Source of the DNA: a bacterium D16-56
Lineage (GTDB): Bacteria > Bacillota > Clostridia > Lachnospirales > Lachnospiraceae
Length of the DNA: 62,891 nt
NCBI GenBank assembly: GCA_003611875.1
Contig: RAYY01000030.1
Location: forward strand, 1-62,891
Direction of reading: 5' to 3'
Positions within the stretch are counted from its first letter, which is position 1; every line of letters starts with the position of its first letter. Shown here in pieces: positions 1,547 through 50,034 of this stretch. The translations under genes were made by a program, and so were the position numbers. The notes beneath the pieces were generated by a model that was given only the letters and a program-made list of their open reading frames with translations, had not been told where the DNA came from and made no database searches.

Positions 1547-2554
1547 ATGGGCAAGGATAACAGCAACGTGGAAAGTGCCAGCAAGGCAGAGGATTGCGGA
1601 AACTTCAACACGATTTTTGATGACGTATTTCGGACAATCGCCCAGAAAATGCCAACCCTGCTGATTCCGCTGATCAACGAGGTTTTCAAGACAAAATATA
1701 CAGAGGATCAGGAAATTGAGCAGCTCCGCAACAAACATTATGAGAAATTCGGAAAAGTTATTACCGATTCGATCATCCGGATCGGAGGGCGTTTGTACCA
1801 TATTGAGTGCCGGTCAAAGAAAGATGGGGATATGGCGCTGCGGATGATAGAATATGATTTTGCGATTGCCCTGGAGCACTCATCCAGGATGGAAGACGAC
1901 ATCCTGGAGATCCGTTTTCCGGAATCCTGCGTACTGTATATCAGGAACCACAAGGATACACCGGACTACCATGAAGCAAGAGTGCGTTTTGCGGATGGGC
2001 AGAGCGTCACATATAAAGTTCCGGTGATCATGGCGCAGGATTATACCGTTGACAGTATTTTCGAAAAACGGCTGCTTGCACTGCTGCCATACCACATCCT
2101 GCGGTATGAGAGTTTCTTGAAATCGAACAGCAACAACCCCAAAAAGGTGGATAAACTGCTGGGCGATTTAGAAGCAATTTGCCAGAGGTTGCTGCAAATA
2201 CAAGAGACAGAAATGTATTCCAATCTTGTTAATCTGATAAAGCAGATTGCAGATTACGTGATCCCGAAGGAAAACCCAGTCAGAGAAAGGATCGGTGAGG
2301 TCATGGGCGGACAGGTATTGATGTTAAAGTCGGAAGAAATCAGGCAGGAAGGCATAGCCCAGGGCATAACACAGGGTATAGCCCAGGGCATAACCCAAGG
2401 CATTGAAGAAGGCCGCAATAAGGAGAAACGCGATACTGCTATTCGGATGCGGAAGGCAAATATACCAATCGAAAGCATCGCTGTTTTCATAGATGAAACA
2501 GTCGATGATACAATTTCCTTGCTGGCCGATGCTGGATTTTCATGCAATTCCTAA
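1547..2554 (+). CDS. Rpn / PD-(D/E)XK nuclease family transposase-like protein
   Basis: This 335-residue protein has the N-terminal PD-(D/E)XK fold of the Rpn/'PDDEXK_2 transposase' family: FDDVFRTIAQKMPTLLIPLI at the start, then RIGGRLYHIECRSKKDG near residue 85, which carries the E-x-x nuclease core. The C-terminal third has five QGI(A/T) tetrapeptide repeats followed by a basic helix (EEGRNKEKRDTAIRMRKA), the usual architecture. Rpn proteins promote RecA-independent recombination and many are phage-defence genes. The ATG at 1547 has GAGAGGAGG upstream. The expected E-C-Q core reads E-C-R, so catalysis is not certain. Confidence 0.75.
   Translation: MGKDNSNVESASKAEDCGNFNTIFDDVFRTIAQKMPTLLIPLINEVFKTKYTEDQEIEQLRNKHYEKFGKVITDSIIRIGGRLYHIECRSKKDGDMALRMIEYDFAIALEHSSRMEDDILEIRFPESCVLYIRNHKDTPDYHEARVRFADGQSVTYKVPVIMAQDYTVDSIFEKRLLALLPYHILRYESFLKSNSNNPKKVDKLLGDLEAICQRLLQIQETEMYSNLVNLIKQIADYVIPKENPVRERIGEVMGGQVLMLKSEEIRQEGIAQGITQGIAQGITQGIEEGRNKEKRDTAIRMRKANIPIESIAVFIDETVDDTISLLADAGFSCNS
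2351..2410 (+). repeat. Five 12-bp in-frame repeats encoding G-I-(A/T/E)-(Q/E)
   Basis: The consensus GGCATAGCCCAG occurs five times in register inside the Rpn-family gene. Copy number can change by slippage without losing frame. Confidence 0.85.
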
Positions 2555-2734
2555 AAGTAGCAGTTTCAGAAGTGTCAGTATCCGCATAACTGAAACAGCG
2601 ATAAGAAGAATTACGCAAATGCAAGATGAGGAACAATATTAAAAATTCGTTTTTCATTGTTAATTCCCGTCTTCGTATAACTATTTATTGTCAAAAGAAG
2701 TACGGCTTATTATTGTTAAGAAACATTAGAAATA

Positions 2735-2776
2735 GGCAGCCTGGCCGGATACCGGTGTGGGCTGCCTGATTTTAAA
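2735..2776 (+). terminator. Terminator-like hairpin downstream of the Rpn-family gene
   Basis: AGGCAGCC (2735-2742) pairs with GGCTGCCT (2760-2767), followed by a weak T-rich tail. The rest of the gap 2555-2865 shows no gene. Confidence 0.45.
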
Positions 2777-2865
2777 GCTTGGCAGATATGTCAACAAGAG
2801 ATTACGAATATCAAAAAGGAGGTTTGCCATATGGGCGAGCATTGGCACCTTGGGAGGAAAACGCG

Positions 2866-3243
2866 ATGCAGGATGCAGTATTGAAAGTGCAGAGATTAGG
2901 AGTGCCGCCGGAGGGGGGTGAAGGCGATGCCTTTCCCGGCGATGAGGAATTTCCCGATGAGGAAACCCTTCAAATATGGGATGAGTGGGTAGAAGCGGTT
3001 GATTCCATCAAAAGGCCGATAACCTGGGAAGAAGCGGAAATCCTTATTAAGTGCAGCCCTACCGAACATATGGCAGGAGTCGAATGGACATTTTTGCATT
3101 GTATAGAAAGCGTTTTTGCGTCTAATGCCATAGAGGGTTTCCGAAAACTGATTGAGAAGTGCAACTCGGACTTGATGAAGAATATGCTGTTGGAACGGCT
3201 TCAGAATTACATCATCAGCAGCGAACGCACCACCGTCCCATGA
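2866..3243 (+). CDS. Hypothetical acidic protein truncated by a repeat
   Basis: I do not recognise this family. The ATG at 2866 is chosen because GGGAGG lies 8 bases upstream; earlier in-frame starts (TTG 2779, ATG 2788) lack a ribosome site. The 125-residue product is acidic early on, with a WEEAEILIKCSP segment and a helical C-terminal half. The last six or seven codons and the stop codon come from the start of the dispersed two-hairpin repeat (from about 3224), so the native C-terminus may be lost. No function is proposed. Confidence 0.4.
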   Translation: MQDAVLKVQRLGVPPEGGEGDAFPGDEEFPDEETLQIWDEWVEAVDSIKRPITWEEAEILIKCSPTEHMAGVEWTFLHCIESVFASNAIEGFRKLIEKCNSDLMKNMLLERLQNYIISSERTTVP

Positions 3244-3527
3244 AAGTCCGGCGGGCGCACTTGGAATACCTGATTAGAATCGCCTCCGGCGATGGGACTT
3301 TCACAGTAAACCTCCATGCGCCCGGCAGCGGATGCGCCACCAATCATGAAAGCTTGGCGGGCGCATTTGGCATCCCTGATTTTAAATCGCCTCCGGCGAT
3401 GGGACTTTCACAGTAAACCTGCATGCGCCCGGCAGCGGACGCGCCACCAATCATGAAAGCTTGGCGGGCGCATTTGGCATCCCTGAATTCATGCCGCCTA
3501 ATCGGCGGCGGGACTTTCACAGTAAAA
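3224..3527 (+). repeat. Dispersed two-hairpin repeat, cluster 1 (one partial and two full units)
   Basis: The units start near 3224 (lacking the 5' third), 3306 and 3413. Each contains hairpin A (TGCGCCCG paired with CGGGCGCA about 30 bases on) and hairpin B. Hairpin B is TCGCC/GGCGA in the first two units and CCGCC/GGCGG in the last. Orientation matches the upstream gene. Confidence 0.85.
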
Positions 3528-3569
3528 CTTCTGGGAGTATGATGGAGAGATTTTCATGCTGTTTTATGA

Positions 3570-3705
3570 CAAGGTGAACTACCCATTGTCTAAAGCCAAT
3601 GGGCTTCCTGCTTCGCAGACCTCGTAACCTACTATCTCCACAGGCGTAGATTCGGGCAGTCCCTGCCCTATAACGGTTTATACCATACATTCGTACCTTG
3701 TATAT
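3570..3705 (-). mobile_element. IS200/IS605-family remnant (TnpB C-terminal tail and end hairpin)
   Basis: On the minus strand the sequence reads MYGINRYRAGTARIYACGD. This resembles the variable tail of TnpB-type proteins of Clostridia IS605 elements. Near 3578-3600 lies the hairpin CCCATTG/CAATGGG, which resembles the imperfect palindromes at the ends of this IS family. No transposase core remains. The assignment rests on recalled family patterns. Confidence 0.45.
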
Positions 3706-3710
3706 TTTAC

Positions 3711-3902
3711 GTGCTGAAGGATTATAAAGATATAATTTCCTTAATCTTACGCTCATTTAATGAGAGGACAAACTATTCAGATGGAACAGATATTATTGCC
3801 TTAATTGAGAAAATACGGGATTCCCAATATTATATTCCCAAATTATCATTTGTAGCTGAATTAGATGGGAATATAGTTGGTTATTGGACGACCGATTCCT
3901 GA
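3711..3902 (+). pseudogene. Truncated GNAT acetyltransferase, N-terminal fragment
   Basis: The 63 codons read as the first strands and helices of a GNAT N-acetyltransferase (DYKDIISLILRSFNERTNY, later FVAELDGNIVGYW). The acetyl-CoA-binding motif A and the rest of the domain (about 100 residues) are missing. The GTG start abuts the IS605 remnant, so the gene is broken at both ends. Confidence 0.6.
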
Positions 3903-3965
3903 TGCTGCAGTAAAAAATATAGGAGTATAATTCTTCTTTGAAGCCCCGCACACTTCAGGGCTTCT

Positions 3966-4499
3966 TTAAGTGTTATCATTTAGTTTAGTATATACATATG
4001 TATCCTTCCAAATTGGTTTTTCAGTTTCATCTTTCCAGAAATACACATTTTTTCTAAAATGGGCTTCACGCTGAAATCCTAACGCTTCAAGTAATTTCCA
4101 CGAACTGGTATTATTGGGGTCACACTCTGCATATATCCTATGTACGCCATTGGAAAAAGCCTGATCGATTAACGCTTTGCAACTTTCGACAGCATAACCA
4201 TATCCCCAATAATTTCGATTAAATACATATCCTATTTCCAATGCTTCAAAGTCACGCTTACCCATATATACATTTCCAATCATTTTATGGGAATTTTTCA
4301 ATTCAACAGCAATCATTTCATCTGTACTAATACGCCATTCAAGACTTTTTTGTGTTTCATCGAAGGTTTGCGGTTTATATGGTTCGTATCTCACAACCTC
4401 CTTATCAGATAAATATTCAAATAAATCCTGTACATCTTCTTTTTTATATCTTCTTAAAATTAGCCTTTCCGTTTCAGCTATAAATATTTTGCTCTCCAT
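3966..4499 (-). CDS. GNAT family N-acetyltransferase (RimJ/RimL type)
   Basis: This 177-residue protein matches the Acetyltransf_3 (RimJ/RimL-like) subfamily. It starts with FIAETERLILRRYKKEDVQD, has IGYVFNRNYWGYGYAVESCK carrying the acetyl-CoA pyrophosphate-binding region (about residues 90-110), and ends with CDPNNTSSWKLLEALGFQRE. Such enzymes move an acetyl group from acetyl-CoA to protein N-termini or small amines; the substrate is not predictable here. The length is normal and the frame intact. It stands alone on the minus strand and has lower GC than the metabolic genes further on, fitting an accessory origin. Confidence 0.82.
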   Translation of the reverse strand: MESKIFIAETERLILRRYKKEDVQDLFEYLSDKEVVRYEPYKPQTFDETQKSLEWRISTDEMIAVELKNSHKMIGNVYMGKRDFEALEIGYVFNRNYWGYGYAVESCKALIDQAFSNGVHRIYAECDPNNTSSWKLLEALGFQREAHFRKNVYFWKDETEKPIWKDTYVYTKLNDNT

Positions 4500-4898
4500 G
4501 TCACATGCTCCATAAAATAATAATCTTTGACTTATTTCTTTTTTGCAAATTTATCAATAACCTTGTCTACCCAGAAATTGATGAAGAAATCAGCAATCTC
4601 TGCAAACACATTCAAAATGAAATCTACCATTTAATTTTTCATCAATTAACGATTTGTTGCTTTAATATTCCAATTTATTCTAACATACAACCCTAATTTT
4701 TTCAATAGAGATTGAAATCACCATTTGACAATGTGGTAAGGAGTTGATGAGCATAGACGAACTGGAAGCAGATACCGGAACGGGATAATCGACAGATATG
4801 GATCATTTATGGCGAATTTTTGTGAAAGCCTATTCCATCTGAAAAGGCATTGTAATATAATAGAGCCAGCGAAAAATCGGAATATGGAGGACAGAGAT

Positions 4899-5363
4899 AT
4901 GTTTGAATGTGGTACATATGAATATGGGTTGAAAACCGGCGATTTACCAGAAAAAGAACTGGTCAAAATCTTTGAAAAGGCACTCAGTAAAATCGCTGGG
5001 GAAATCAATGATTCCCGTATTCCTAAAAAGCGGAAACTGAAAAAGATGACTGGACCGTTTGGCCGCTCTACTCCAGACGCAGACCCGCCAGAATATGATT
5101 ATATCTATCTTTATAGTCATAGACCCAGTAATTTATTTTTGCAGCTGTACCCTAATCAAGAGAAGAATGGTCGGGTAAAATTTTCGGAGGAGGGAATTAT
5201 CTGGAATTTGTACTTTTATATTTTGTCGGACTATCCAAACCGGATATCCGATGTGGATCATATCCAAGAGTTTGGCGGCAGAGTGATTGAGGAATTATTC
5301 CAGACACTTCCCTGCGAAAAGGTACTCATTAAGAAATATGCCCCTGGTGAAGATAGACTTTAG
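4899..5363 (+). CDS. Hypothetical protein, possible immunity-type gene
   Basis: I do not recognise the family. The ATG at 4899 is chosen over upstream starts because TGGAGG lies 8 bases before it. The 154-residue product has no signal peptide or membrane segment. It contains a short charged linker (RIPKKRKLKKM) followed by an aromatic-rich region (YDYIYLYSH, WNLYFYIL). It precedes an Imm1-family gene by 71 bases in the same direction. Small orphan genes of this look often accompany polymorphic-toxin immunity arrays, but that role is only inferred from the neighbour. Confidence 0.55.
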   Translation: MFECGTYEYGLKTGDLPEKELVKIFEKALSKIAGEINDSRIPKKRKLKKMTGPFGRSTPDADPPEYDYIYLYSHRPSNLFLQLYPNQEKNGRVKFSEEGIIWNLYFYILSDYPNRISDVDHIQEFGGRVIEELFQTLPCEKVLIKKYAPGEDRL

Positions 5364-5434
5364 TGAAGCTGCAAATTCAACTTTATCGGCAAGTGAAATA
5401 GAGTAAAAATCAGTATTTTGGGAGGAATAGCTAT

Positions 5435-5776
5435 ATGGTTATTGATAGTTGGGAAAACGGTCAGTATAAAGAAATCTGGGTTTATTCAAAAGAAGCAGAG
5501 GATGATGAGCGGGCGATGTGCGGGTTGATAAATGGTGATTGGGGTTGGCTCAATTATTATAACGAGGAAGGGGACGCAGGATTAAGCTCCAGAAATCCGA
5601 ACTATACTGATACAGATGATGATGAAACCATGAATTTTATAATAAATGGTGAACTTGACCCATTTCCTTTATCTTATGTGTTGCCTGCAGAACAGGTGAT
5701 GGAAGCCCTTGAATATTTTGAAAAGTTTCATAAGCTGCCCACATTCATAACATGGCATGATGATAATTTCGCTTAG
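5435..5776 (+). CDS. Imm1-family immunity protein
   Basis: This 113-residue acidic protein fits the Imm1 pattern: SSRNPNYTDTDDDETMNF, NGELDPFPLSYVLPAEQVM, then ALEYFEKFHKLPTFITWHDD. Imm1 proteins bind and neutralise nuclease or deaminase domains of contact-dependent or secreted polymorphic toxins. GGGAGGA precedes the ATG. No toxin gene is present in the window, so this is an orphan immunity gene that may protect against toxins of neighbouring cells. The frame is intact and the length normal. The two-hairpin repeat begins about 110 bases downstream in the same orientation. Confidence 0.72.
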   Translation: MVIDSWENGQYKEIWVYSKEAEDDERAMCGLINGDWGWLNYYNEEGDAGLSSRNPNYTDTDDDETMNFIINGELDPFPLSYVLPAEQVMEALEYFEKFHKLPTFITWHDDNFA

Positions 5777-5884
5777 AAAATTTCCATTTGCCGGGGAGCT
5801 ACATGTAAAGAAAAATCAGAATTTCTGTGGAGGTGGGAGTGTCCGTTGTCAGAGAATGGTTTGGTGAGAACTAAGGTTTAAATG

Positions 5885-6101
5885 GAAACCTTCATGCGCC
5901 CGGCAGCGGACGCACCACCGTTCCATGAAAGTCCGGCGGGCGCACTTGGAATACCTGATTAGAATAGTCTCCGGCGATGGGGCTTTCACAGTAAACTTCC
6001 ATGCGCCCGGCTACGGACGCGCCACCAATCATGAAAGCTTGGCGGGCGCATTTGGCATCCCTGATTTTAAATCGCCTCCGGCGATGGGACTTTCACAGTA
6101 A
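5885..6101 (+). repeat. Dispersed two-hairpin repeat, cluster 2 (two tandem units)
   Basis: Two units begin near 5885 and 5992. Each keeps hairpin A (TGCGCCCG/CGGGCGCA); the second keeps hairpin B in its TCGCCTCCGGCGA form, while in the first it is mutated to AGTCTCCGGCGA. Orientation is the same as the upstream Imm1 gene. Confidence 0.85.
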
Positions 6102-6115
6102 TAGGATTATAAAAA

Positions 6116-6147
6116 CAGGATTCCTGGAAACGGGAGTCCTTTTTTTC
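6116..6147 (+). terminator. Rho-independent terminator
   Basis: AGGATTCC pairs with GGGAGTCCT (one G-T wobble) and is followed by seven T. It lies just after repeat cluster 2 and could end the Imm1 transcript. Nothing gene-like was seen in 6148-6333. Confidence 0.7.
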
Positions 6148-6332
6148 ATGCATTTTTGCTGGCTGTTTCTTAATTCCGTCCGGGATTTCCATAATATTTT
6201 AGCGGGGAGGCGGACAGATGGATTATGAGAGGATGACAGAATGTCAATGAAAGAGATTCCACACTGGCAGAGGCAGCAGCAGCCCTGGGACTGAAGTGAC
6301 AGAAGGAAGCCATGGTGGTCATGCATTGAGGT

Positions 6333-6376
6333 GTAAAAAAGCGCATTGCGATGCTGGTGACAGCGGCAATGCGCTT
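6333..6376 (-). terminator. Terminator of the AraC-family gene
   Basis: Read on the minus strand, AAGCGCATTGC pairs perfectly with GCAATGCGCTT and is followed by six T. It lies about 80 bases past the stop codon of the AraC-family gene. Confidence 0.75.
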
Positions 6377-6457
6377 AAAAGAAAGGTTCTCCCTTAGAAG
6401 AAGGAGATGCTGAGTATATGAACGCAGTCGAAGTAAGGGAGGGCTATCCAAAGCTAA

Positions 6458-7684
6458 CTAATGATTCCGAATCCCTTTCCGATAGACTGTGGGCGTTTTC
6501 CCCAGTAATTTCTTAAATGTGCGTGTAAAATAGTTGGCATCGCCAAAGCCGCACTGGACAGCGATCTCTCCGATGGAAAAATCGGAAGCATTTAGAAGAA
6601 CCAGGGCCTGACGGATGCGGGTGTCATTAATGTAATCCGTAATAGTGGTGCCGGTTTCCTTTTTGAACTGAGAAGAAAGGTAGGCGGGAGAAACAAAATT
6701 CATGTCTGCCAGGCTGGCCAGGGACAGTTCGCTGCTGTAATGAAAGTCGATATAATCCATGCAGGCTCGTACCAGCTCGGAGCAGGAAAGCCTGGAGTAA
6801 TTATTAACCAGCAGGCAGTATTTGCGTATCATGACGTTTGGAAGCGCATCCAATTGTCCCGTGGTGCAGGATGATTCGATTTGAATTGCCAGCTGTCTGG
6901 AAAGATTGTCAATATGAAAAGGATGGACCCGGGCTTGTTCCACTGCTTTGCGCAGCAGGGTATTTAAGGTAAACATAAGATTCTTCTGGTCCCGGACAGG
7001 GTCAGGAACACGAGGCATAAGCCGGAACTGGAGGAAATGATAGTGGGCATCCAGCGCATCCTGGGTGTTCCCAGCGGCGACGGCAGCAATAATCTTATTT
7101 TCCCACATGTAGCGTTCCGCGATGGAGCGGAGAGCCACGTCAGGCTCTTCCGGGATAAGAAAATGATAATCTGTGGAGGGAAGCTGACTCATGGTCTGGG
7201 TGTCGATCTGGCGGAACTTTAGGGAAAAGCCGCATTGGCTGAGAAAAAAGCCAATGGTATGGTTCCAGTGATCGTAGGAATAGATCAAAGGAATCCGGTT
7301 AAAAAATTCAAAAAAGTCCTGGTGGCAGTGGGAAGGGATATGAAGCCTTTCTAAAAGGGAGGCAGCTTTATGCTGGCTCATGGGCCGGAAAAGAACAGGG
7401 CCCATGCACAGAACCTGGCAGCCGGCCGTGCTCTCTGCCTCCTCCGGAAAGCGGAACAGGAAATACTGCAGCATCAAGTCATCCTGAAACGAGTAGTAGG
7501 TGCCCGCCTCCAGGTATTGCTTGATAGCGTCTGCGATAATCTGATAATCAAAATCTTTCAGCATTTTTCTGCGAAAACCATAATCAATCTGTTCAATCTG
7601 TTCATAGTCTCCGCCAAAGAGAAGGACCTGTATGCCAAGATGACGCAGCAGGGCGGTCAGCATTTGGAATGGCTGGGGATTCAT
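6458..7684 (-). CDS. AraC family transcriptional regulator of the glucuronide cluster
   Basis: The C-terminal 100 residues form a two-helix-turn-helix AraC/XylS DNA-binding domain (LASLADMNFVSPAYLSSQFK, later IGEIAVQCGFGDANYFTRTF). The N-terminal 300 residues are a sensor region I cannot name. The ATG at 7684 is preferred over a TTG at 7702 because GCGAGGT lies just upstream; this gives 408 residues. It is divergent from the HAD/GPH/beta-glucuronidase cluster, and the shared 140-base gap carries repeated GCACAATTTT motifs. It is therefore the likely local activator, perhaps responding to a glucuronide. The ligand is inferred from gene order only. Confidence 0.88.
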   Translation of the reverse strand: MNPQPFQMLTALLRHLGIQVLLFGGDYEQIEQIDYGFRRKMLKDFDYQIIADAIKQYLEAGTYYSFQDDLMLQYFLFRFPEEAESTAGCQVLCMGPVLFRPMSQHKAASLLERLHIPSHCHQDFFEFFNRIPLIYSYDHWNHTIGFFLSQCGFSLKFRQIDTQTMSQLPSTDYHFLIPEEPDVALRSIAERYMWENKIIAAVAAGNTQDALDAHYHFLQFRLMPRVPDPVRDQKNLMFTLNTLLRKAVEQARVHPFHIDNLSRQLAIQIESSCTTGQLDALPNVMIRKYCLLVNNYSRLSCSELVRACMDYIDFHYSSELSLASLADMNFVSPAYLSSQFKKETGTTITDYINDTRIRQALVLLNASDFSIGEIAVQCGFGDANYFTRTFKKLLGKTPTVYRKGIRNH

Positions 7685-7696
7685 GGGAAGTACCTC

Positions 7697-7808
7697 GCAC
7701 AATTTTAATCAGAAATAGCACAATTTTTCTGTTCCAAATATAATAACATAAAATTGTGCGATTATCAATGAAAATTGTCCTAGGAAAAGATCACAAAATC
7801 TTTATACT
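7697..7808. promoter_or_regulatory. Divergent control region with repeated AraC-type sites
   Basis: GCACAATTTT occurs at 7697-7706 and 7718-7727. Its reverse complement AAAATTGTGC is at 7750-7759, with a near copy AAAATTGTCC at 7771-7780. A TATACT -10 box for the rightward cluster lies at 7803-7808 with no good -35 box. The last motif sits where an activator would contact polymerase. The motifs are read directly; binding by the AraC protein is inferred. Confidence 0.6.
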
Positions 7809-7831
7809 ATGAGGCAAAGGAGGTAGTGGCG

Positions 7832-8671
7832 ATGAGCGTATTTGATGAGTACGGAAGAAAACATGAGTTTCTGGTCTGCATCGACTCTGACGGGTGTGCC
7901 ATGGACACCATGGACTGCAAGCACTTTTACTGCTTCGGCCCCTGTATGGTGAAGGAGTGGGAGCTGGAGCCGTGGAAGGATGAGATTCTGGATTACTGGA
8001 ATAGGGTAAACCTGTATTCCATGAGCCGGGGCATTAACCGGTTTCTCGGTCTTGCCATGGTGCTTTCCCATGTCCATGATACATACAAAGAGATTTCCCA
8101 GATTGGGAACTTTTCTTCATGGACCAAGGAGGCAGTCCAGCTTTCCAACGAATCGGTGAAGGCGGCCTGGGAAGACAACGGATGTGAGATTTTCAGAAAG
8201 GCCCTGGCCTGGTCGCAGGCGGTAAATGAGGCCGTCACAAAGCTGCCGGGGGAGCTGAAAAAGCCCTTTGCCGGAGCGAGAGAGGGACTCCTGGCGGCCC
8301 ATGAAGCGGCGGATGTGGCCATTGTTTCGTCGGCGAATAAGGAGGCTGTGAAGGAAGAATGGGAGAAGTTCGGCCTGATGGACTGGGTGGATATCTGCCT
8401 GACACAGACAGAGGGAAGCAAGGCATACTGTATCGGGGAGATGATAAAGGCCGGATATGCCCCGGATCATGTGCTGATGGTGGGAGACGCCCCCGGAGAT
8501 CAGGATGCCGCCGAAAAAAACCAGGTGCTGTATTACCCGATCCTGGTGAAGCGGGAGGAGGAATCCTGGAAACGGTTTGTGCAGGAGGCGCTGCCTAAAT
8601 TTCTGGAGGGCAGCTACAAAGGAGCGTATCAGGAGCAGATGATCCGGGTGTTCAGGGACAATCTTTCCTGA
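7832..8671 (+). CDS. HAD superfamily hydrolase (predicted phosphatase)
   Basis: This 279-residue protein carries the HAD motifs in order: CIDSDGC with catalytic Asp18 and Asp20, the motif II serine in AIVSSANKE (about residue 165), the motif III lysine in EGSKAYC, and the motif IV acids in MVGDAPGDQDAA. A helical cap lies between motifs I and II. HAD enzymes hydrolyse phosphoesters through an aspartyl-phosphate. AAAGGAGGT ends 7 bases before the ATG at 7832. It heads the cluster with the GPH symporter, suggesting a sugar-phosphate or phosphonate-like substrate, but none can be named. A partial repeat unit starts immediately after its stop codon. Confidence 0.83.
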   Translation: MSVFDEYGRKHEFLVCIDSDGCAMDTMDCKHFYCFGPCMVKEWELEPWKDEILDYWNRVNLYSMSRGINRFLGLAMVLSHVHDTYKEISQIGNFSSWTKEAVQLSNESVKAAWEDNGCEIFRKALAWSQAVNEAVTKLPGELKKPFAGAREGLLAAHEAADVAIVSSANKEAVKEEWEKFGLMDWVDICLTQTEGSKAYCIGEMIKAGYAPDHVLMVGDAPGDQDAAEKNQVLYYPILVKREEESWKRFVQEALPKFLEGSYKGAYQEQMIRVFRDNLS

Positions 8672-8693
8672 CAGTAAACCTGCATGCGCCCGG
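8672..8693 (+). repeat. Partial copy of the two-hairpin repeat
   Basis: Only the first 22 bases of the unit (AGTAAACCTGCATGCGCCCG) remain. They begin one base after the HAD stop codon and are in the same orientation. Confidence 0.75.
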
Positions 8694-8729
8694 AGACTTT
8701 TTAAGTGACAAGCGAGGAGAATATGTAAA

Positions 8730-10202
8730 ATGAACGAACAGACGATCAATAACGGTATCCACCGTGCGAAGCTGTGGCAGATTGCAGGCTTTGCCTTCAA
8801 CAACACAGCAACCAATATGTACATGTTTATGATGAATTTTATTGCTTATTATATGGTAGGAGCCGTGGGCGTAGGCGTAGTGTTGGCATCTACGTTTGTG
8901 ACTATTATGAGAGTATGGGACGGCGTGACCGACCCGTTTGTGGGATTTGTGCTGGATAAGACCAACGGGAAATTCGGCAAGAACCGGCCCTTTATGCTCA
9001 TCGGCAATGTGATCCTGGCTCTGGCTACCTTTATCATGTTCCATGTCAGCCACAATATGCCAAAGGCCATACGGTTTGTTTTCTTTATTGTTATCTACAT
9101 GATTTATGTCATCGGTTATACCTGCCAGTGCGTGGTGACAAAATCGGCTCAGTCATGTCTCACCAACGACCCGAAGCAGAGGCCTTTATTTACCATTTTT
9201 GACGGCATTTATAATACCATTATCTTTGCGGCCCTTCCTATCTTTTTTACCGGCTATCTGCTTTCCAAACATGCAGGGGAATTTTCTGTTTCCTATTTCC
9301 ATGACGGATGGATGATGGTGGCTCCTGTCTCTTTTGTGCTGACTTGTATTGCCATATTCAGCATTTCAGGCAAAGACCGTTCGGAGTACTTTGGCGCAGG
9401 TCAGGAGATAAAAGTAAAGTTTAAGGATTACTGGGAGGTGCTGAAACATAACCGGGCCATCCAGATGTTAGTGGTGTCCGCAGGCACGGACAAGCTGGCG
9501 CTGAGTACCCAGAGCAATGCCACCGTAAGCGTTATTGTATATGCCATCGTGTGCGGAAATGCGGCGCTGCAGGGCGGCGTATCGGCCTACACCAGTATTC
9601 CTACCATGCTGTTTTTGATGTTTGGCGCCGGTTACATCGCAACCCGTCTTGGGCAGAAAAAGGCCATGATGTTCGGAACTTATGGGTCTCTGGTCTGCTG
9701 CGTTTTGTCTGTCATCCTGTTTTATGCGGGAGATCCCAGAAGCCTGGCGCTGCCTGGGTTTGACGGATTTGCGGGATGGAATTTCTTTACCCTGGCATTT
9801 CTTGCGCTGTGGGTTGGATTTAAAGGCTTCAGCGGTATTTCCGGCAATATTGTTATTCCCATGACTGCCGACTGTGCCGACTATGAGGTGGCCCGCTCCG
9901 GCAAATACGTGCCGGGACTTATGGGAACTCTGTTCAGCTTTGTGGATAAGATGATTTCCTCTCTGGGCTCCACTATCGTGGGATTGATGTGCGCGGCGAT
10001 TGGATTTACGGCGGCTCTTCCTGACGCCAACACCTCCTACAGCCCGCAGCTGAAATTTGTCGGACTGTTCTGTCTGTATGGCCTGGTGATTATCGGCCTG
10101 CTGTGCAACATTGCAGCCATGAGATTTTATCCCCTGACCAAGGAGAAGATGGAGGAGATCCAGGGCCAGATTGCAGAGATTAAGGCAAAGGCGGTAACGT
10201 AA
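8730..10202 (+). CDS. GPH-family (MFS_2) sugar:cation symporter
   Basis: This 490-residue membrane protein has about 12 hydrophobic segments and the glycoside-pentoside-hexuronide family signature MRVWDGVTDPFVGFVLD near residues 55-72, followed by GKFGKNRPFML. It likely imports a glucuronide or hexuronide with Na+ or H+, given the beta-glucuronidase two genes downstream. AGCGAGGAG precedes the ATG. The TAA stop codon (10200-10202) is part of the GTAAACCTG start of the downstream repeat array, so the repeat supplies the stop. Confidence 0.88.
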   Translation: MNEQTINNGIHRAKLWQIAGFAFNNTATNMYMFMMNFIAYYMVGAVGVGVVLASTFVTIMRVWDGVTDPFVGFVLDKTNGKFGKNRPFMLIGNVILALATFIMFHVSHNMPKAIRFVFFIVIYMIYVIGYTCQCVVTKSAQSCLTNDPKQRPLFTIFDGIYNTIIFAALPIFFTGYLLSKHAGEFSVSYFHDGWMMVAPVSFVLTCIAIFSISGKDRSEYFGAGQEIKVKFKDYWEVLKHNRAIQMLVVSAGTDKLALSTQSNATVSVIVYAIVCGNAALQGGVSAYTSIPTMLFLMFGAGYIATRLGQKKAMMFGTYGSLVCCVLSVILFYAGDPRSLALPGFDGFAGWNFFTLAFLALWVGFKGFSGISGNIVIPMTADCADYEVARSGKYVPGLMGTLFSFVDKMISSLGSTIVGLMCAAIGFTAALPDANTSYSPQLKFVGLFCLYGLVIIGLLCNIAAMRFYPLTKEKMEEIQGQIAEIKAKAVT

Positions 10203-10739
10203 ACCTGCATGCGCCCGGCAGAGGACGCACCACCATCCATGAGAGTCAGGCGGGCGCATTGGCATCCCTGAACTCATGCCGCCTATTAGCGGCGGACTTA
10301 TAAAGTAAACCTGCATGCGCCCGGCAGAGGACGCACCACCATCCATGAGAGTCAGGCGGGCGCATTTGGCATCCCTGAACTCATGCCGCCTATCAGCGGC
10401 GGACTTATAAAGTAAACCTGCATGCGCCCGGTTGCGGACGCACCACCATCCATGAGAGTCAGGCGGGCGCATTTGGCATCCCTGAACTCATGCCGCCTAT
10501 CAGCGGCGGATTTATAAAGTAAACCTGCATGCGCCCGGTTGCGGACGCACCACCATCCATGAAAGTCCGGCAGGCACATTTGGCATCCCTGAATTTATGC
10601 CGCCTGTCCGGCGGCGGGACTTTTACAGTAAACCTGCATGCGCCCGGCAGCGGACGCACCACCAATCATGAAAGTCAGGCGGGCGCATTTGGCATCCCTG
10701 AATTCATGCCGCCTAATCGGCGGCGGGACTTTTACAGTA
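10199..10739 (+). repeat. Dispersed two-hairpin repeat, cluster 3 (five tandem units)
   Basis: Units start at 10199, 10305, 10412, 10519 and 10628, with lengths of about 106-112 bp. Each has hairpin A (TGCGCCCG/CGGGCGCA) and hairpin B (CCGCC/GGCGG). Small changes occur between units: CAGAGGAC against TTGCGGAC in the loop, and ACTTATAAAGT against ACTTTTACAGT at the tail. There are no unique spacers, so it is not a CRISPR. Short frames across it are artefacts of repeat periodicity. Confidence 0.92.
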
Positions 10740-10758
10740 AGAAACCGGAGGGCCCGAA

Positions 10759-11127
10759 ATGAAACAAGATAAGCAGAAAGACAGAGATTTCGTAAATCCC
10801 CAGGAGTTGATTGCCCTGGAGCAGGAATTGGCGGAGCTGAAACAGCAGCATGGGCTTTTGGGAAAGCCCCGCTGGTGGGTCAGGCTGGGAGACTGGCTGG
10901 CGGAGAAAACCCAGGAGCCAAGGAGGGTAGACCGAAAAAAATACATTCGCCTTGCCCTGACCTGCGGATGGTTCTGCGGAGCCCACAGATTTTATGCCCG
11001 GCAGAAAATCCTGGGAACCCTGTATCTTCTGTTGTTCTGGACCGGGTTTTCCTTTACCATGACGCTGATTGATCTTATGATCGTAGTGCCTATGAAGGCC
11101 GACAGTCAGGGAATGATAGAATTATAG
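10759..11127 (+). CDS. TM2 domain membrane protein
   Basis: The 122-residue product has a charged N-terminal half with a short coiled-coil-like stretch (LIALEQELAELKQQ). A TM2 domain follows: IRLALTCGWFCGAHRFYARQ, then two membrane segments with a D-x-x-x-x-V/P ending. TM2 proteins are small two-span membrane proteins of unclear function. CCGGAGG precedes the ATG, and the gap to uidA is 17 bases, so it is co-transcribed with the beta-glucuronidase. Its role in the cluster is unknown. Confidence 0.75.
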   Translation: MKQDKQKDRDFVNPQELIALEQELAELKQQHGLLGKPRWWVRLGDWLAEKTQEPRRVDRKKYIRLALTCGWFCGAHRFYARQKILGTLYLLLFWTGFSFTMTLIDLMIVVPMKADSQGMIEL

Positions 11128-11144
11128 AACAAGGAGGAGACATT

Positions 11145-12977
11145 ATGCTGTACCCTGTATTAACAGAATCCAGAGGGCTTATGGATTTAAGCGGAATCTG
11201 GGCGTTTAAACTGGACAACGGAAAGGGATTTGACGAGAAATGGTATGAAGGACCTATAAACGATACCATACCCATGGCAGTACCTTCATCCTACAATGAC
11301 CTGCAGGAAGGAGAGGATTTCAGGGAGCATTACGGCTGGGTGTTTTATCAGCGGGCCATCCGTGTTCCGGCATATATGAGGACCCAGCGCATCGTGCTGC
11401 GGATGGCGGCTGTAACCCATATAGCTAAAATTTACTTAAACGGCACATGCATCTGTGAGCACAAAGGAGGGTTTCTTCCATTTGAAGTGGAGATAAACGA
11501 TTATCTGCAGGACGGAGAGAACCTGCTGACCATTGCCGTGGACAACCGGATTGACCATTCCACCCTTCCTGTGGGAAGCGAAAACGGAAAAGGGATGTTA
11601 AGCAGCAACATGTTTGAGTCAAAGACCACCAAGAAGAGAAATAATCCCAACTTTGACTTTTTCAACTACTGCGGCATTACCCGTCCGGTGAAGATTTACA
11701 CCACCCCCAGGGATTATATTGGGGACGTGACCCTGACTTCGGAGATTGATGAAGGCAGCGCATGGGTAAACTATGAGGTAGAAACTGTCGGCAGCGGGGA
11801 GGTGGAGATTGAGGTCCGTACCAGAACCGGGGAACTGGCGGCAAAAGGTACAGGCAAAATGGGCAGGCTGACCATTGACAATCCGGTTTTGTGGCAGCCT
11901 TTAAAGCCCTATCTCTATGAGATAACCGTAAGGTTTCATGAGGACGTGTATACCATGACCTACGGAATCCGCACGGTGAAGGTGGAGGGAGGAAAATTTT
12001 TAATCAACGGCCGGCCCTTCTATTTTAAGGGCTACGGAAAGCACGAGGATACATTCCCGGCAGGGCGGGGGCTGAATCTGCCCATGAACATCAAGGACGT
12101 CAGCCTGATGAAATGGCAGGGAGCCAACAGCTTTAGAACCAGCCACTATCCCTACAGCGAGGAAATGATGCAGCTTTGCGATGAGGAGGGCATCGTTGTC
12201 ATCGACGAGGTGCCGGCAGTGGGCGTACACTTAAATTTCGGCGGCGGCGCCAACTTTAAGGGAACCCCCAGAGTAGAAACCTTTGACCCGCCGGAGGCAG
12301 GCGGCATCCGCACCTTTGAGCATCATAAAGAGGTAATCCGGGATGTAATCGCCAGAGATAAGAACCGGGCATGCGTGGTGATGTGGAGCATTGCCAATGA
12401 GTCCGACTCCGCAGGCAAAGGCGCCTACGAGTACTTTAAGCCCCTGTATGATCTGGCCCGCAGCCTGGACGCCCAGAAGCGGCCCTGCACCATGGTCAGC
12501 GTCCAGATGCCCAACTACAAGGAGGACTGCACCATCCGCTTAAGCGACGTGTTCTGCTTAAACCGCTACTATGGCTGGTATAACTGCGGCGGAGATCTGG
12601 CGGCGGCGGAAGCGATGTGCCGGGAGGAGATGGAATTCTGGAATTCCCTTGGAAAGCCTTTTATGTTTACAGAGTATGGGGCGGATACCGTAAGTGGGCT
12701 GCATGACACTACCCCGGTTATGTGGACGGAGGAGTATCAGGTGGAGTACTATAAAGCCAGCCACCGGGCGGTGGACGGCATGGAAAACTTTGTGGGAGAG
12801 CAGGTGTGGAATTTTGCCGACTTTGCCACCAGCCAGGGCCTGATGCGTGTACAGGGCAACAAGAAAGGGCTGTTTACCCGTGACCGGCGGCCCAAGCTGG
12901 CAGCCCACTATTTTCGCAGCCGGTGGACGAACATGCCGGATTTCCGGGATGATAAGAATGGGGAAAATGTCGATTAG
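11145..12977 (+). CDS. uidA: Beta-glucuronidase, glycoside hydrolase family 2
   Basis: This 610-residue GH2 enzyme has the sugar-binding, immunoglobulin-like and TIM-barrel domains in order. The acid/base is Glu419 (MWSIANES) and the nucleophile is Glu510 (MFTEYGAD). The N-x-K glucuronate-recognition motif is present at Asn572 and Lys574 (GNKKGLFTRDRRPK), which separates glucuronidases from beta-galactosidases. It hydrolyses beta-glucuronides to glucuronate and an aglycone. No signal peptide is seen, so it acts in the cytoplasm on material brought in by the symporter. AAGGAGGA precedes the ATG. The length is normal for gut Firmicute enzymes. Confidence 0.93.
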   Translation: MLYPVLTESRGLMDLSGIWAFKLDNGKGFDEKWYEGPINDTIPMAVPSSYNDLQEGEDFREHYGWVFYQRAIRVPAYMRTQRIVLRMAAVTHIAKIYLNGTCICEHKGGFLPFEVEINDYLQDGENLLTIAVDNRIDHSTLPVGSENGKGMLSSNMFESKTTKKRNNPNFDFFNYCGITRPVKIYTTPRDYIGDVTLTSEIDEGSAWVNYEVETVGSGEVEIEVRTRTGELAAKGTGKMGRLTIDNPVLWQPLKPYLYEITVRFHEDVYTMTYGIRTVKVEGGKFLINGRPFYFKGYGKHEDTFPAGRGLNLPMNIKDVSLMKWQGANSFRTSHYPYSEEMMQLCDEEGIVVIDEVPAVGVHLNFGGGANFKGTPRVETFDPPEAGGIRTFEHHKEVIRDVIARDKNRACVVMWSIANESDSAGKGAYEYFKPLYDLARSLDAQKRPCTMVSVQMPNYKEDCTIRLSDVFCLNRYYGWYNCGGDLAAAEAMCREEMEFWNSLGKPFMFTEYGADTVSGLHDTTPVMWTEEYQVEYYKASHRAVDGMENFVGEQVWNFADFATSQGLMRVQGNKKGLFTRDRRPKLAAHYFRSRWTNMPDFRDDKNGENVD

Positions 12978-27069: not shown

Positions 27070-27209
27070 AAACCTAATGTAACAATACTGGATGCTGCTG
27101 AGGTATCTTTTGGAGATAATGTGTTTATTGCGCCGGATTGCGTATTTTCAACAGCAGGACATCCACTTGACGCGGATCAGAGGAACCAAGGGCTGGAAAT
27201 TGCGCTGCC
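27070..27209 (+). pseudogene. Sugar O-acetyltransferase fragment (LacA/Maa type)
   Basis: About 45 codons read NVTILDAAEVSFGDNVFIAP and TAGHPLDADQRNQGLEIALP. This is the hexapeptide-repeat core, including the catalytic His of maltose/galactoside O-acetyltransferases. The N-terminal part is absent and the frame is cut at LP by the start of an inverted copy of the two-hairpin repeat. Confidence 0.65.
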
Positions 27210-27273
27210 AAATGCGCCCGCCAAGCTTTTATAATTGGTGGTACGTCCGCCGCCGGGCGCATGGAGGTTTACT
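27206..27273 (-). repeat. Two-hairpin repeat, partial unit in reverse orientation
   Basis: The reverse complement gives AGTAAACCTCCATGCGCCCG through CGGGCGCATTTGGCA, i.e. hairpin A only. It abuts the truncated acetyltransferase. The gap 27274-27551 shows no gene. Confidence 0.8.
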
Positions 27274-41119: not shown

Positions 41120-41174
41120 CTAGTACATCGTTCGGCAAGCGATTAGTGTAGTTATTTGCAAAACGATGTACTAG
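41120..41174. repeat. 13-bp perfect inverted repeat, long hairpin
   Basis: CTAGTACATCGTT (41120-41132) is the exact reverse complement of AACGATGTACTAG (41162-41174), with GCAA/TTGC pairing inside the loop. There is no T tract. Confidence 0.65.
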
Positions 41175-41217: not shown

Positions 41218-41272
41218 ACAGCAAACCTCCATGCGCCCGGCAGCGGACGCACCGCCATAAATGAAGGGGGTT
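41218..41272 (+). repeat. Two-hairpin repeat, 5' half unit
   Basis: GCAAACCTCCATGCGCCCGG and CAGCGGACGCACCGCCATAA match the first 50 bases of the unit. It then merges into a MITE-like segment. It lies about 140 bases downstream of the second reductase, in the same orientation. Confidence 0.75.
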
Positions 41273-41282
41273 TACTGTGAGC

Positions 41283-41360
41283 CTCCGGCAGATGCACACA
41301 AAATGCCAAAGGCGGGCATTTTGGCGCGTTATATGGTCAGCGCAGCCAGTACCCTCGCTT
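41283..41360 (+). repeat. MITE-like internal segment related to 56855-57016
   Basis: CTCCGGCAGATGCACAC, TTTTGGCGCGTTAT and GGTCAGCGCAGCC align in order with the MITE at 56855-57016 (CCGCCAGATGCACGC, TTTGGCTCTTAT, GGTCAGCGCAGCC). Confidence 0.5.
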
Positions 41361-41520
41361 CCCTGGGGCAGACCTATAGTAAGAATATAGAGATTTTACG
41401 GTAAGAAGCAGGGCCGGATCCGTAAGCTGCAGGTTCTCATATGGGAGTCTGCGGCTTTTTTATTGGTAATAATCCAGTTGCTGTTCAGGTAGATCTGCGC
41501 ACTGGCTGCGCTGACCATAT
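41331..41520. repeat. Pair of 20-bp perfect inverted repeats 150 bp apart
   Basis: ATATGGTCAGCGCAGCCAGT (41331-41350) is exactly reverse-complemented at 41501-41520. The interior has no gene but holds a terminator. Confidence 0.7.
41426..41464 (+). terminator. Rho-independent terminator
   Basis: AGCTGCAG pairs with CTGCGGCT (one wobble) followed by six T. Confidence 0.65.
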
Positions 41521-48294: not shown

Positions 48295-48464
48295 AAGTAA
48301 TGAATTGAAAAAAATAGTAAAGTTGTACAAAAGATGAAGGCGCAAGAATGGTGCCAGAAAACATTTTCCATGGAAAGAAAACGAAAACGAAAATGAAGGT
48401 CTGCGTTTCAAAGCAGATTTTTATGATTACCACCAAATTTTTTATTATGGAGAGGAGGATATCT

Positions 48465-49931
48465 ATGAAGTATCTTCAGAAACTGGGGAAAGCTTTAATG
48501 CTCCCTGTGGCGTGTCTCCCCATTTGCGGTATCTTAATGGGATTTGGTTACTTATTCTGCCCGGCTTCCATGCAGGGCGGCGATATTGTCGGTTTTGTGC
48601 CGAAGCTGGGACTGTTTTTGGTGAAGGCAGGCGGAGCGCTGATTGACAATATGGCAATTTTGTTTGTAATTGGTGTTGGTGTTGGGATGTCAGAAGACAA
48701 TGACGGAACCGGCGGTCTGGCGGCCCTGGCTTCCTGGCTGATGATAACTACTTTGTTGTCCACAGGTTTTGTGACCACCCTGTTTCCGTCGATTGCCGAG
48801 AATCCGGATAAGGTGTTGGCATTTGATAAGATTGCCAATCCCTTTATCGGAATTTTATCCGGTGTAATCGGTTCCTCATGCTACAACCGCTTTAAGAGGA
48901 CCAAACTTCCTAACTGGCTGTCGTTCTTCAGCGGCAAGCGGTGTGTGGCCATTGTGGCAGGAGTGGTTTCCATTCTGGCTTCTGTGGTATTGCTGTTTAT
49001 ATGGCCGGTGGTGTTTGGCGTGTTGATCGCAGTTGGTAATGGGATTATCGGAATGGATGCCATTGGAGCCGGTATCTATGCGTTCCTGAACCGTTTGCTG
49101 ATTCCTACCGGGCTGCATCACGCCCTCAACAATGTTTTCTGGTTCGATACCATCGGATTAGGAGATTTGAGTCATTTCTGGGCAGGCGAGACTTCGGCAG
49201 ATGTGAGCTGGTCTTTGGGAATGTACATGTCAGGGTTCTTCCCCTGTATGATGTTTGGTATTCCGGGAGCTGCTTTGGCTATGGTACATTGTGCTAAACC
49301 TGAGAAGCGGGATGTGGCAGTAGGTCTGGTTGCCTCCGCAGCGATTTGTGCGTTTATCTGCGGCGTTACAGAGCCTTTTGAATTTGGATTTATGTTCCTG
49401 GCTCCGGCTTTGTATGTGGTATATGCGCTGCTGTACGGAATTTTTACTACAATTACCGTAATGCTTGGCTTCCGCGCCGGATTCTCTTTCTCGGCAGGCG
49501 GTACAGACCTTCTGTTCTCCGCAACCCTGCCGGCAGCTGCGAAAACATGGTTGATTCTGCCTCTTGGAATAGCGGCCTTCGCGGTATTTTATCTGGTGTT
49601 CCGTTTTGCCATTACGGCCTGGAATCTGAAAACTCCGGGACGTGAGGATGACGAGGAAGATGAACTGAAGGTAGTGCTGGCTAATGATAACTTTACCCAG
49701 ATAGCAGAAATTATTCTGGAAGGTGTGGGCGGCAAGGAGAACTTAGCTTCCATTGACAACTGTATCACACGTCTGCGTCTGGAGGTAGTGGATAATACCA
49801 AGGTGGATGAAAAGAAGATTAAGTCAGCCGGAGTGGCTGGAGTGATTCGTCCCGGAAAGACCAGCGTGCAGGTTGTGATCGGCACACAGGTCCAGTTCGT
49901 AGCAGATGAATTTAAGAAACTTTGTAAGTAA
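48465..49931 (+). CDS. PTS glucose-family EIICB component
   Basis: The 488-residue protein has an EIIC membrane domain (KYLQKLGKALMLPVACLPIC at the start, ten or so segments, GVTEPFEFGFMFLAPALYVV carrying the substrate loop, PTGLHHALNNVFW). It ends with an EIIB domain whose Cys in DNCITRLRLEV is the phospho-acceptor. It imports and phosphorylates a hexose or N-acetylhexosamine using EIIA from elsewhere. ATG 48465 with GAGAGGAGG is chosen over starts up to 39 codons upstream. The stop codon TAA lies inside the GTAAACCTG start of a short two-hairpin repeat copy. Confidence 0.9.
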   Translation: MKYLQKLGKALMLPVACLPICGILMGFGYLFCPASMQGGDIVGFVPKLGLFLVKAGGALIDNMAILFVIGVGVGMSEDNDGTGGLAALASWLMITTLLSTGFVTTLFPSIAENPDKVLAFDKIANPFIGILSGVIGSSCYNRFKRTKLPNWLSFFSGKRCVAIVAGVVSILASVVLLFIWPVVFGVLIAVGNGIIGMDAIGAGIYAFLNRLLIPTGLHHALNNVFWFDTIGLGDLSHFWAGETSADVSWSLGMYMSGFFPCMMFGIPGAALAMVHCAKPEKRDVAVGLVASAAICAFICGVTEPFEFGFMFLAPALYVVYALLYGIFTTITVMLGFRAGFSFSAGGTDLLFSATLPAAAKTWLILPLGIAAFAVFYLVFRFAITAWNLKTPGREDDEEDELKVVLANDNFTQIAEIILEGVGGKENLASIDNCITRLRLEVVDNTKVDEKKIKSAGVAGVIRPGKTSVQVVIGTQVQFVADEFKKLCK

Positions 49932-49963
49932 ACCTGTATGTGCCCGGCAGCGGGCACACTGCC
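49928..49963 (+). repeat. Short, compacted copy of the two-hairpin repeat
   Basis: GTAAACCTGTATGTGCCCGG, then CAGCGGGCACACTGCC. Hairpin A is collapsed to TGTGCCCG-gcag-CGGGCACA with a 4-base loop. It supplies the PTS stop codon. Confidence 0.65.
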
Positions 49964-50021
49964 AAAAGCTCCTTTTTGGTAAGAATGGTCATCACTGCAT
50001 TCTTACCGAAAAGGAGCTTTT
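49964..50021. terminator. Strong bidirectional terminator
   Basis: AAAAGCTCCTTTTTGGTAAG pairs with CTTACCGAAAAGGAGCTTTT (the extra C at the tip aside), with A and T runs on both flanks. It serves the PTS gene and the converging Sel1 gene. Confidence 0.85.
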
Positions 50022-50034
50022 ATCACTGCCGGTA

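Follow-up and report, generated by a model that had tools for sequence, protein, structure and literature searches.

A dispersed 107-nt hairpin repeat of Lachnospiraceae with exact borders at GTAA, probably a non-autonomous mobile element

In a 62,891-nt stretch of DNA from the Lachnospiraceae bacterium D16-56 (contig RAYY01000030.1, here called the window), we found a family of dispersed repeats that we read as mobile but non-autonomous elements, about 107 nt long and probably moved in trans (probability of about 0.62). The element is mobile and exact: its ends are constant, and at eight orthologous sites one of two related genomes lacks the element, the break falling at GTAA, in agreement with the targeted insertion proposed in the original prediction. 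A dedicated mRNA 3'-end device, the other role proposed there, is not how the element behaves.

Anatomy and distribution of the repeat

Copies of the repeat start with GTAAACCTNCATGCGCCCGG and end with GACTTTCANA, followed by GTAA. Between these constant ends the interior varies, from a 31-nt deletion form up to about 190 nt, and complete copies mostly measure 107-116 nt, GTAA included. Copies of about 160-190 nt have a second interior (ATGCACACAAAATGCC ... GGCATTTTGG); they occur alone, or else fused or tandemly joined to copies of the first kind, reaching 275 nt. Eighteen copies are shorter than 70 nt; ten of these measure 39-40 nt including GTAA (the window's copy at 8674 measures 35), and eight have another copy directly behind them. 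Left-only and right-only places of this genome, inspected for a long element, yielded two 39-nt mini copies instead. At L246 2061-2108 and at window positions 41221-41280, a left end is followed by a close inverted left end (GGTTTACT), forming short palindromes.

The two hairpins expected from the window, A and an exchangeable B, are present in a consensus built on 178 distinct full-length copies, of which 90 come from this genome and 88 from others, and pairs in them covary. For each of the two exchanged pairs of hairpin B, 59 sequences have both sides altered, with about 20-21 expected from shuffling; this covariation is one two-allele block, so it represents few events rather than many. One pair of hairpin A changes from C-G to T-A in seven of the 178 copies, where 1.2 would be expected. 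The GTAA tag stands 7-10 nt from the hairpin, and copies of 31-40 nt are without the hairpins.

Within the window, a 20-mer of the repeat matches 13 times at up to three mismatches (mean and largest number both 0 in 100 window shuffles), and Tandem Repeats Finder places 107-nt arrays at 3239-3526, 5886-6101, and 10195-10740. Except where stated, the copies lie on the forward strand. The first array (3217-3521) has three units, the first without its left end: a left-truncated unit at 3217..3305 (model positions 19-105, from the nhmmer match and the sequence), a complete unit with the hairpin-B allele ATCGCC/GGCGAT at 3306..3412, and a complete unit with the allele GCCGCC/GGCGGC at 3413..3521, with its right GTAA at 3522-3525. 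The called gene 2842-3243 extends into the truncated unit, and its last residues are probably repeat-derived. The second array (5884-6097) consists of two complete units, 5884..5990, with the left tetranucleotide GGAA, and 5991..6097, with the right GTAA at 6098-6101. Five complete units follow at 10199..10736 (starts 10199, 10305, 10412, 10519, and 10628; right GTAA 10737-10740), and the TAA at 10200-10202, inside the element's own GTAA, is the stop codon of the upstream MFS_2 transporter gene (8730..10202, forward; Pfam PF13347).

The remaining window copies are partial or variant. A 31-nt mini copy at 8674..8704, with the left 20 nt fused to the right end and then GTGA at 8705-8708, starts 3 nt past a stop codon ending at 8671. 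On the reverse strand, a right-truncated copy at 27202..27272 keeps model positions 1-71 only. The long variant at 41221..41400, whose right border was placed by eye against L197, joins the usual left end to the second, longer interior, with its right GTAA at 41401-41404; a 19-nt inverted repeat (41120-41174) lies 46 nt ahead of it. The copy at 49928..49965 retains the left 38 nt only, and the gene 48348-49931 has its stop codon in this copy's TAA (49929-49931). Directly after the copy, between convergent genes, lies a 31-nt inverted repeat (49957-50028, 87%) that is probably a two-way terminator. Repeats were present at all the places first listed, but the 107-nt size did not hold at 8672 (the 31-nt copy), 27206 and 49928 (both partial), or 41218 (the other interior). 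Rfam gave no match in the window at the gathering score.

That the family is dispersed was borne out genome-wide. A search profile built from nine window units found at least 126 places at E <= 1.6e-5 and at least 141 at E up to 10, both lower bounds with 150 of 516 candidates scored. On 72 non-redundant stretches of this genome (467,678 bases), 126 matches fall into 100 blocks, comprising 80 single units, 17 doubles, and one block each of three, four, and five units. Truncation at either end is frequent in the fetched part of the genome. Spread has been recent here, as 24 of 90 copies are at least 95% identical to a copy at a different locus (maximum 98.2%).

An exact pattern scan of genome contigs found the 20-mer in at least 86 stretches, nearly all from Lachnospiraceae, Hungatella, Enterocloster, and similar bacteria. 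The profile matched 17 of the 21 genomes picked for holding the 20-mer, from 2 to at least 150 times each; one Korobacter and two Oscillospiraceae genomes have a 20-mer match, and the profile search finds nothing in them. Under stricter filters, matches were obtained in 10 of 60 relatives of the window's genome, all of one genus. The repeat had no match in IMG/VR (exact pattern) or in phages and plasmids (blastn, E 1e-5).

Empty sites and the match between target and element

We compared two related metagenome-assembled genomes, G070 and G071, that are syntenic over about 90 kb at 87-93% identity, with further sites coming from 16 G070 flanks sent to G071 (15 with both flanks and one with one, from 30 blocks). 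The partner was empty at 8 of the 15 judged sites (G071 C1:25053; G070 C5:49516; C1:46705; L291; L294; L295; L299; L302). The element was present in both genomes at G071 C1:70275, L307, and L290 (truncated in G071), and the partner held a different or reversed element at G071 C1:20836, G071 C1:57419, and L306; one site, L304, was ambiguous. G071 C1:8161 and G070 C5:102120 lie beyond comparable sequence and were left out of the 15. L306 and L322 are one intergenic place, with the element in opposite orientations in G070 and G071.

At the empty sites the break lies 5' of one GTAA-like tetranucleotide, which is GTAA, GCAA, or GAAT on one strand and TTAC-like on the other. Viewed on that other strand, an element itself ending in TTAC is inserted 3' of TTAC. 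The clearest case is C1:46705, where the empty site TTCA|GTAATATA corresponds to the occupied TTCA|GTAAACC ... ATTTATG|GTAATATA; both junctions are clean, without substitutions or small indels, in only two of the eight sites (C1:46705 and L294). At C1:46705, L295, and G071 C1:25053, the sequence preceding GTAA in the empty site is not that found at the element's right end, which excludes a duplication beyond GTAA. The empty sites may record gain or loss, and precise loss by slippage between short flanking direct repeats could also account for them. No pair of copies examined in G070 or G071 (19 and 8 copies) exceeded 88.9% identity, so these copies are not young.

Further analysis showed that the target resembles the element. 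Left flanks without a neighboring copy read TTTCANA before GTAA, whether taken from this genome (n=68) or from other ones (n=84), and resemble the element's own right end. Moreover, the base at -2 is identical on the two sides of the element in 71 of 128 single copies, with 35.0 expected (z 7.3; 0 of 2000 shuffles as high), and it does so both here (30 of 52, 16.7 expected) and in other genomes (41 of 76, 22.2 expected). This match is partial (55%) and is spread over all bases (AA 27, TT 18, CC 17, GG 9); positions -1, -3, and -4 match in excess as well, more weakly. The -2 match had led us to consider a duplication of an NAGTAA target, which was dropped on the empty-site evidence. As the three empty sites exclude duplication of these bases, we read the match as a preference for matching.

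Candidate agents and competing explanations

IS608 inserts 3' of TTAC without a longer duplication. We consider it possible, if doubtful, that the repeat is an ends-only relative of IS200/IS605 elements (PATE or REP-like), moved as single-stranded DNA by a Y1 (HuH) TnpA. In this case TTAC would be the tetranucleotide both cleaved and targeted, and hairpins B and A would be the left-end and right-end palindromes of the bottom strand. Bottom-strand insertion 3' of TTAC without a longer duplication fits this explanation, as do the arrangement TTAC-TNTGAAAGT-hairpin B ... CAAAT-hairpin A ... GGTTTAC on that strand and the A-rich tetranucleotide just ahead of each hairpin. Guide sequences stand 5' to the palindromes, according to the excerpted text of PMC8266576; by eye, the candidate guides AAAG and CAAA precede hairpins B and A, and the terminal variants do not covary with them. 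The outer helices of the bottom strand also carry an excess of G-T over A-C (265 vs 48, or 90 vs 47 minus two wobble-rule columns). However, the inner helices, minus their two wobble columns, lean the opposite way (70 vs 129), and in single copies neither strand folds clearly better than the other (z -1.6 to -3.0). GC skew gives no clear replication-strand bias (58 vs 42 blocks), and the mechanism does not predict matching at base -2.

The distribution of Y1 transposases (PF01797) also argues against this explanation. No Y1 was found in 6 of 11 many-copy genomes (G061, G062, G064, G065, G066, and G069), although the assemblies are drafts, in which a missing match does not prove absence, and a full-length, stop-free Y1 TnpA was found in only 2 of the 11 (G070 and G071), with fragments only in G000, G063, and G076. 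One of the six without Y1 is the isolate assembly 1XD42-76, which has at least 150 repeat matches. In the genome of the window, the sole IS200-type TnpA match (L096 4496-4834, minus strand) is a 112-aa frame whose match starts only at profile position 14, which does not support the TnpA proposed in the original prediction. It sits 2.3 kb from a four-unit array (7152-7577) whose last three units score alike, and a 305-aa gene beside that array (L096 5754-6671) presumably encodes a member of the Rpn-type (PD-(D/E)XK) nuclease family.

Moreover, no parent with these ends was found: none of 59 Y1 loci has them as its own. The repeat profile gave no match in 30 Y1 loci and, in 29 more, matched L343 only. 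End motifs at up to three mismatches yielded scattered chance matches and ordinary L343 copies across the 59 loci, and at 0-1 mismatches none outside L343. The gene at L343 1450-1890 (G071), an intact IS200-like TnpA whose ends, as judged by eye, are different ones, adjoins two tandem copies. An autonomous copy was likewise searched for and rejected, since none of 190 right ends (1,643,501 bases, some loci overlapping) has a left end 300-1500 nt away. In six the nearest left end is 1.5-4 kb off, and in the five distinct ones among them it belongs to an ordinary copy or is a chance match; 54 have no left end within 4 kb. No copy carrying a gene was found in the stretches examined. The genes beside close copy pairs are ordinary (by eye; Pfam for ten window proteins). 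The insertion rule is like that of IS200/IS605 and the anatomy is a lead that fails the parent test, and we do not claim membership. PATEs, as far as the excerpted account in PMC7290912 goes, are similarly short and gene-less, with a hairpin near each end and tetranucleotide insertion without a longer duplication, and are thought to be moved in trans. The repeat differs in having no parent IS with its ends in the loci examined, more than 100 copies, tandem arrays, a target that must resemble the element's end, and no Y1 in most many-copy genomes.

The predicted RAYT was not recovered: none of the 11 many-copy genomes has a match over the curated cut-off, at which the E. coli control scores, and 5 of 11 show weak matches at E up to 1. 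IS110 recombinases are over cut-off in 5 of the 11, with one ordinary repeat copy near 14 IS110 loci, and have no match in G062 and G076. The repeat shares with REP/REPIN/BIME sequences and their RAYT (TnpA-REP) an intergenic location, high copy number, hairpins, a terminal tetranucleotide, arrays, and, as far as searched, a chromosomal habitat. It has GTAA, however, where REPs have GTAG or a related tag at the hairpin foot, and two unlike hairpins in one orientation where REPs form inverted pairs (excerpted accounts in PMC3733652, PMC8266576, PMC6006769); a REP genome would also have a RAYT gene, usually repeat-flanked, and no such gene over cut-off was seen here. The CGTC-tagged REPs of Di Nocera et al. 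2013 (PMC3733652) are likewise abundant palindromic repeats for which a dedicated transposase was not found. They are shorter, with another terminal tag and other host groups, and the excerpted text of PMC3733652 does not name Firmicutes or Clostridia.

An explanation that we regard as unlikely needs no enzyme: polymerase or repair template switching between the core TTTCANAGTAA and similar sites, with the hairpins stalling replication, would produce a homology-guided spread. The core flanks every copy on both sides and is shared by the left flank and the right end, matching at positions -4 to -1 exceeds what the consensus of these positions accounts for, no enzyme has been found, and truncation is common at either end, all of which speaks for it. 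However, the 128 single copies have their borders at identical nucleotides, as do copies from different species, an exactness beyond what one would expect of template switching over four to eleven matching bases.

We find it very improbable that the repeat is an mRNA 3'-end element, a terminator or stabilizer selected downstream of genes. Using our own codon model (385 genes, coding fraction 0.74) and AGTAA sites as controls, we examined the 92 of 100 blocks that keep their left end. Placement is not random, as only 2 of the 92 lie inside genes against the coding fraction of 0.74, and the stems carry compensatory changes. The stop codon of the own-orientation upstream gene falls within 30 nt of the element in 28 of 57 cases, and the element's GTAA is itself the upstream stop codon in 16 of 92 blocks (13 of 190 controls, p=0.011), as would suit a 3'-end role. 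The target motif explains this stop-codon excess. The rule seen in the window, that forward copies follow a gene of their own orientation, holds there but not genome-wide: of the 88 blocks with a called gene on the left, 57 have one in their own orientation and 31 face its start side, which taken alone is uneven (p=0.007) but does not exceed the controls (88 of 162, p=0.14). On the right there is no preference, the gene there lying on the same strand in 47 of the 88 blocks, so that copies also precede starts, and on the opposite strand in 41. No T-run follows the element's hairpins; in window positions 2000-12000 no copy bears a terminator-like site in forward orientation, and one minus-strand match (10757-10745) falls outside the units. 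Copies are also cleanly lost or missing at orthologous genes. The gene-end position looks like a by-product of the GTAA target.

Least probable of all is a classical MITE mobilized by a DDE transposase, which would have terminal inverted repeats and a target duplication. A poor inverted repeat can be aligned by eye (left GTAAACCTCCATGCGCC vs reversed right GTGAAAGTCCCATCGCC), but the flanking bases are not duplicated relative to empty sites and the two ends do not covary.

A possible mechanism and its implications

We return to a mobile element moved in trans. The agent would recognize both ends and join them to a site sharing a short core with the element's end; it is probably a trans-acting enzyme favoring a matching core, and the reaction may be a site-specific or single-strand recombination on a hairpin-bearing element. 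An insertion at a stop codon would leave the protein unchanged, the target GTAA and the element's own GTAA both supplying the codon, and most insertions inside genes would be lost. Gene 3' ends would be favored because TAA is part of GTAA and every insertion comes with a further GTAA.

Integron attC sites, which measure about 60-140 nt, form hairpins and have a short core at which recombination involves one strand at a time. The repeat resembles them in size, hairpins, and short core; it differs in lacking, by eye, the GTTRRRY core, in having no cassette genes, and in being dispersed rather than held in one platform. We looked for an attC-like pairing of left and right ends and rejected it, as no covariation was found between end columns that are nearly invariant. 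Tentatively, the repeat may represent a transposase-less hairpin family that spreads, guided by core homology, into sites copying its end (TTTCANA|GTAA, matched at -2) through a shared or chromosomal recombinase, with no Y1, RAYT, or IS110 enzyme involved. If true, bacteria would have a route of dispersal intermediate between integron sites and REP elements, in which rebuilding the stop codon serves to avoid harm.

Small abundant repeats are usually put down to REP/RAYT or IS-derived systems. In this repeat family of gut Lachnospiraceae, which reaches at least 150 matches per genome, there is a precise insertion rule and a measurable target match with the enzyme not in sight, and what moves enzyme-less repeats becomes a testable question. 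Such arrays break contigs and seed false open reading frames in metagenome-assembled genomes. The repeat also shows how a stop codon can be exploited by a mobile element that meets a target GTAA with a GTAA of its own, the protein staying as it was.
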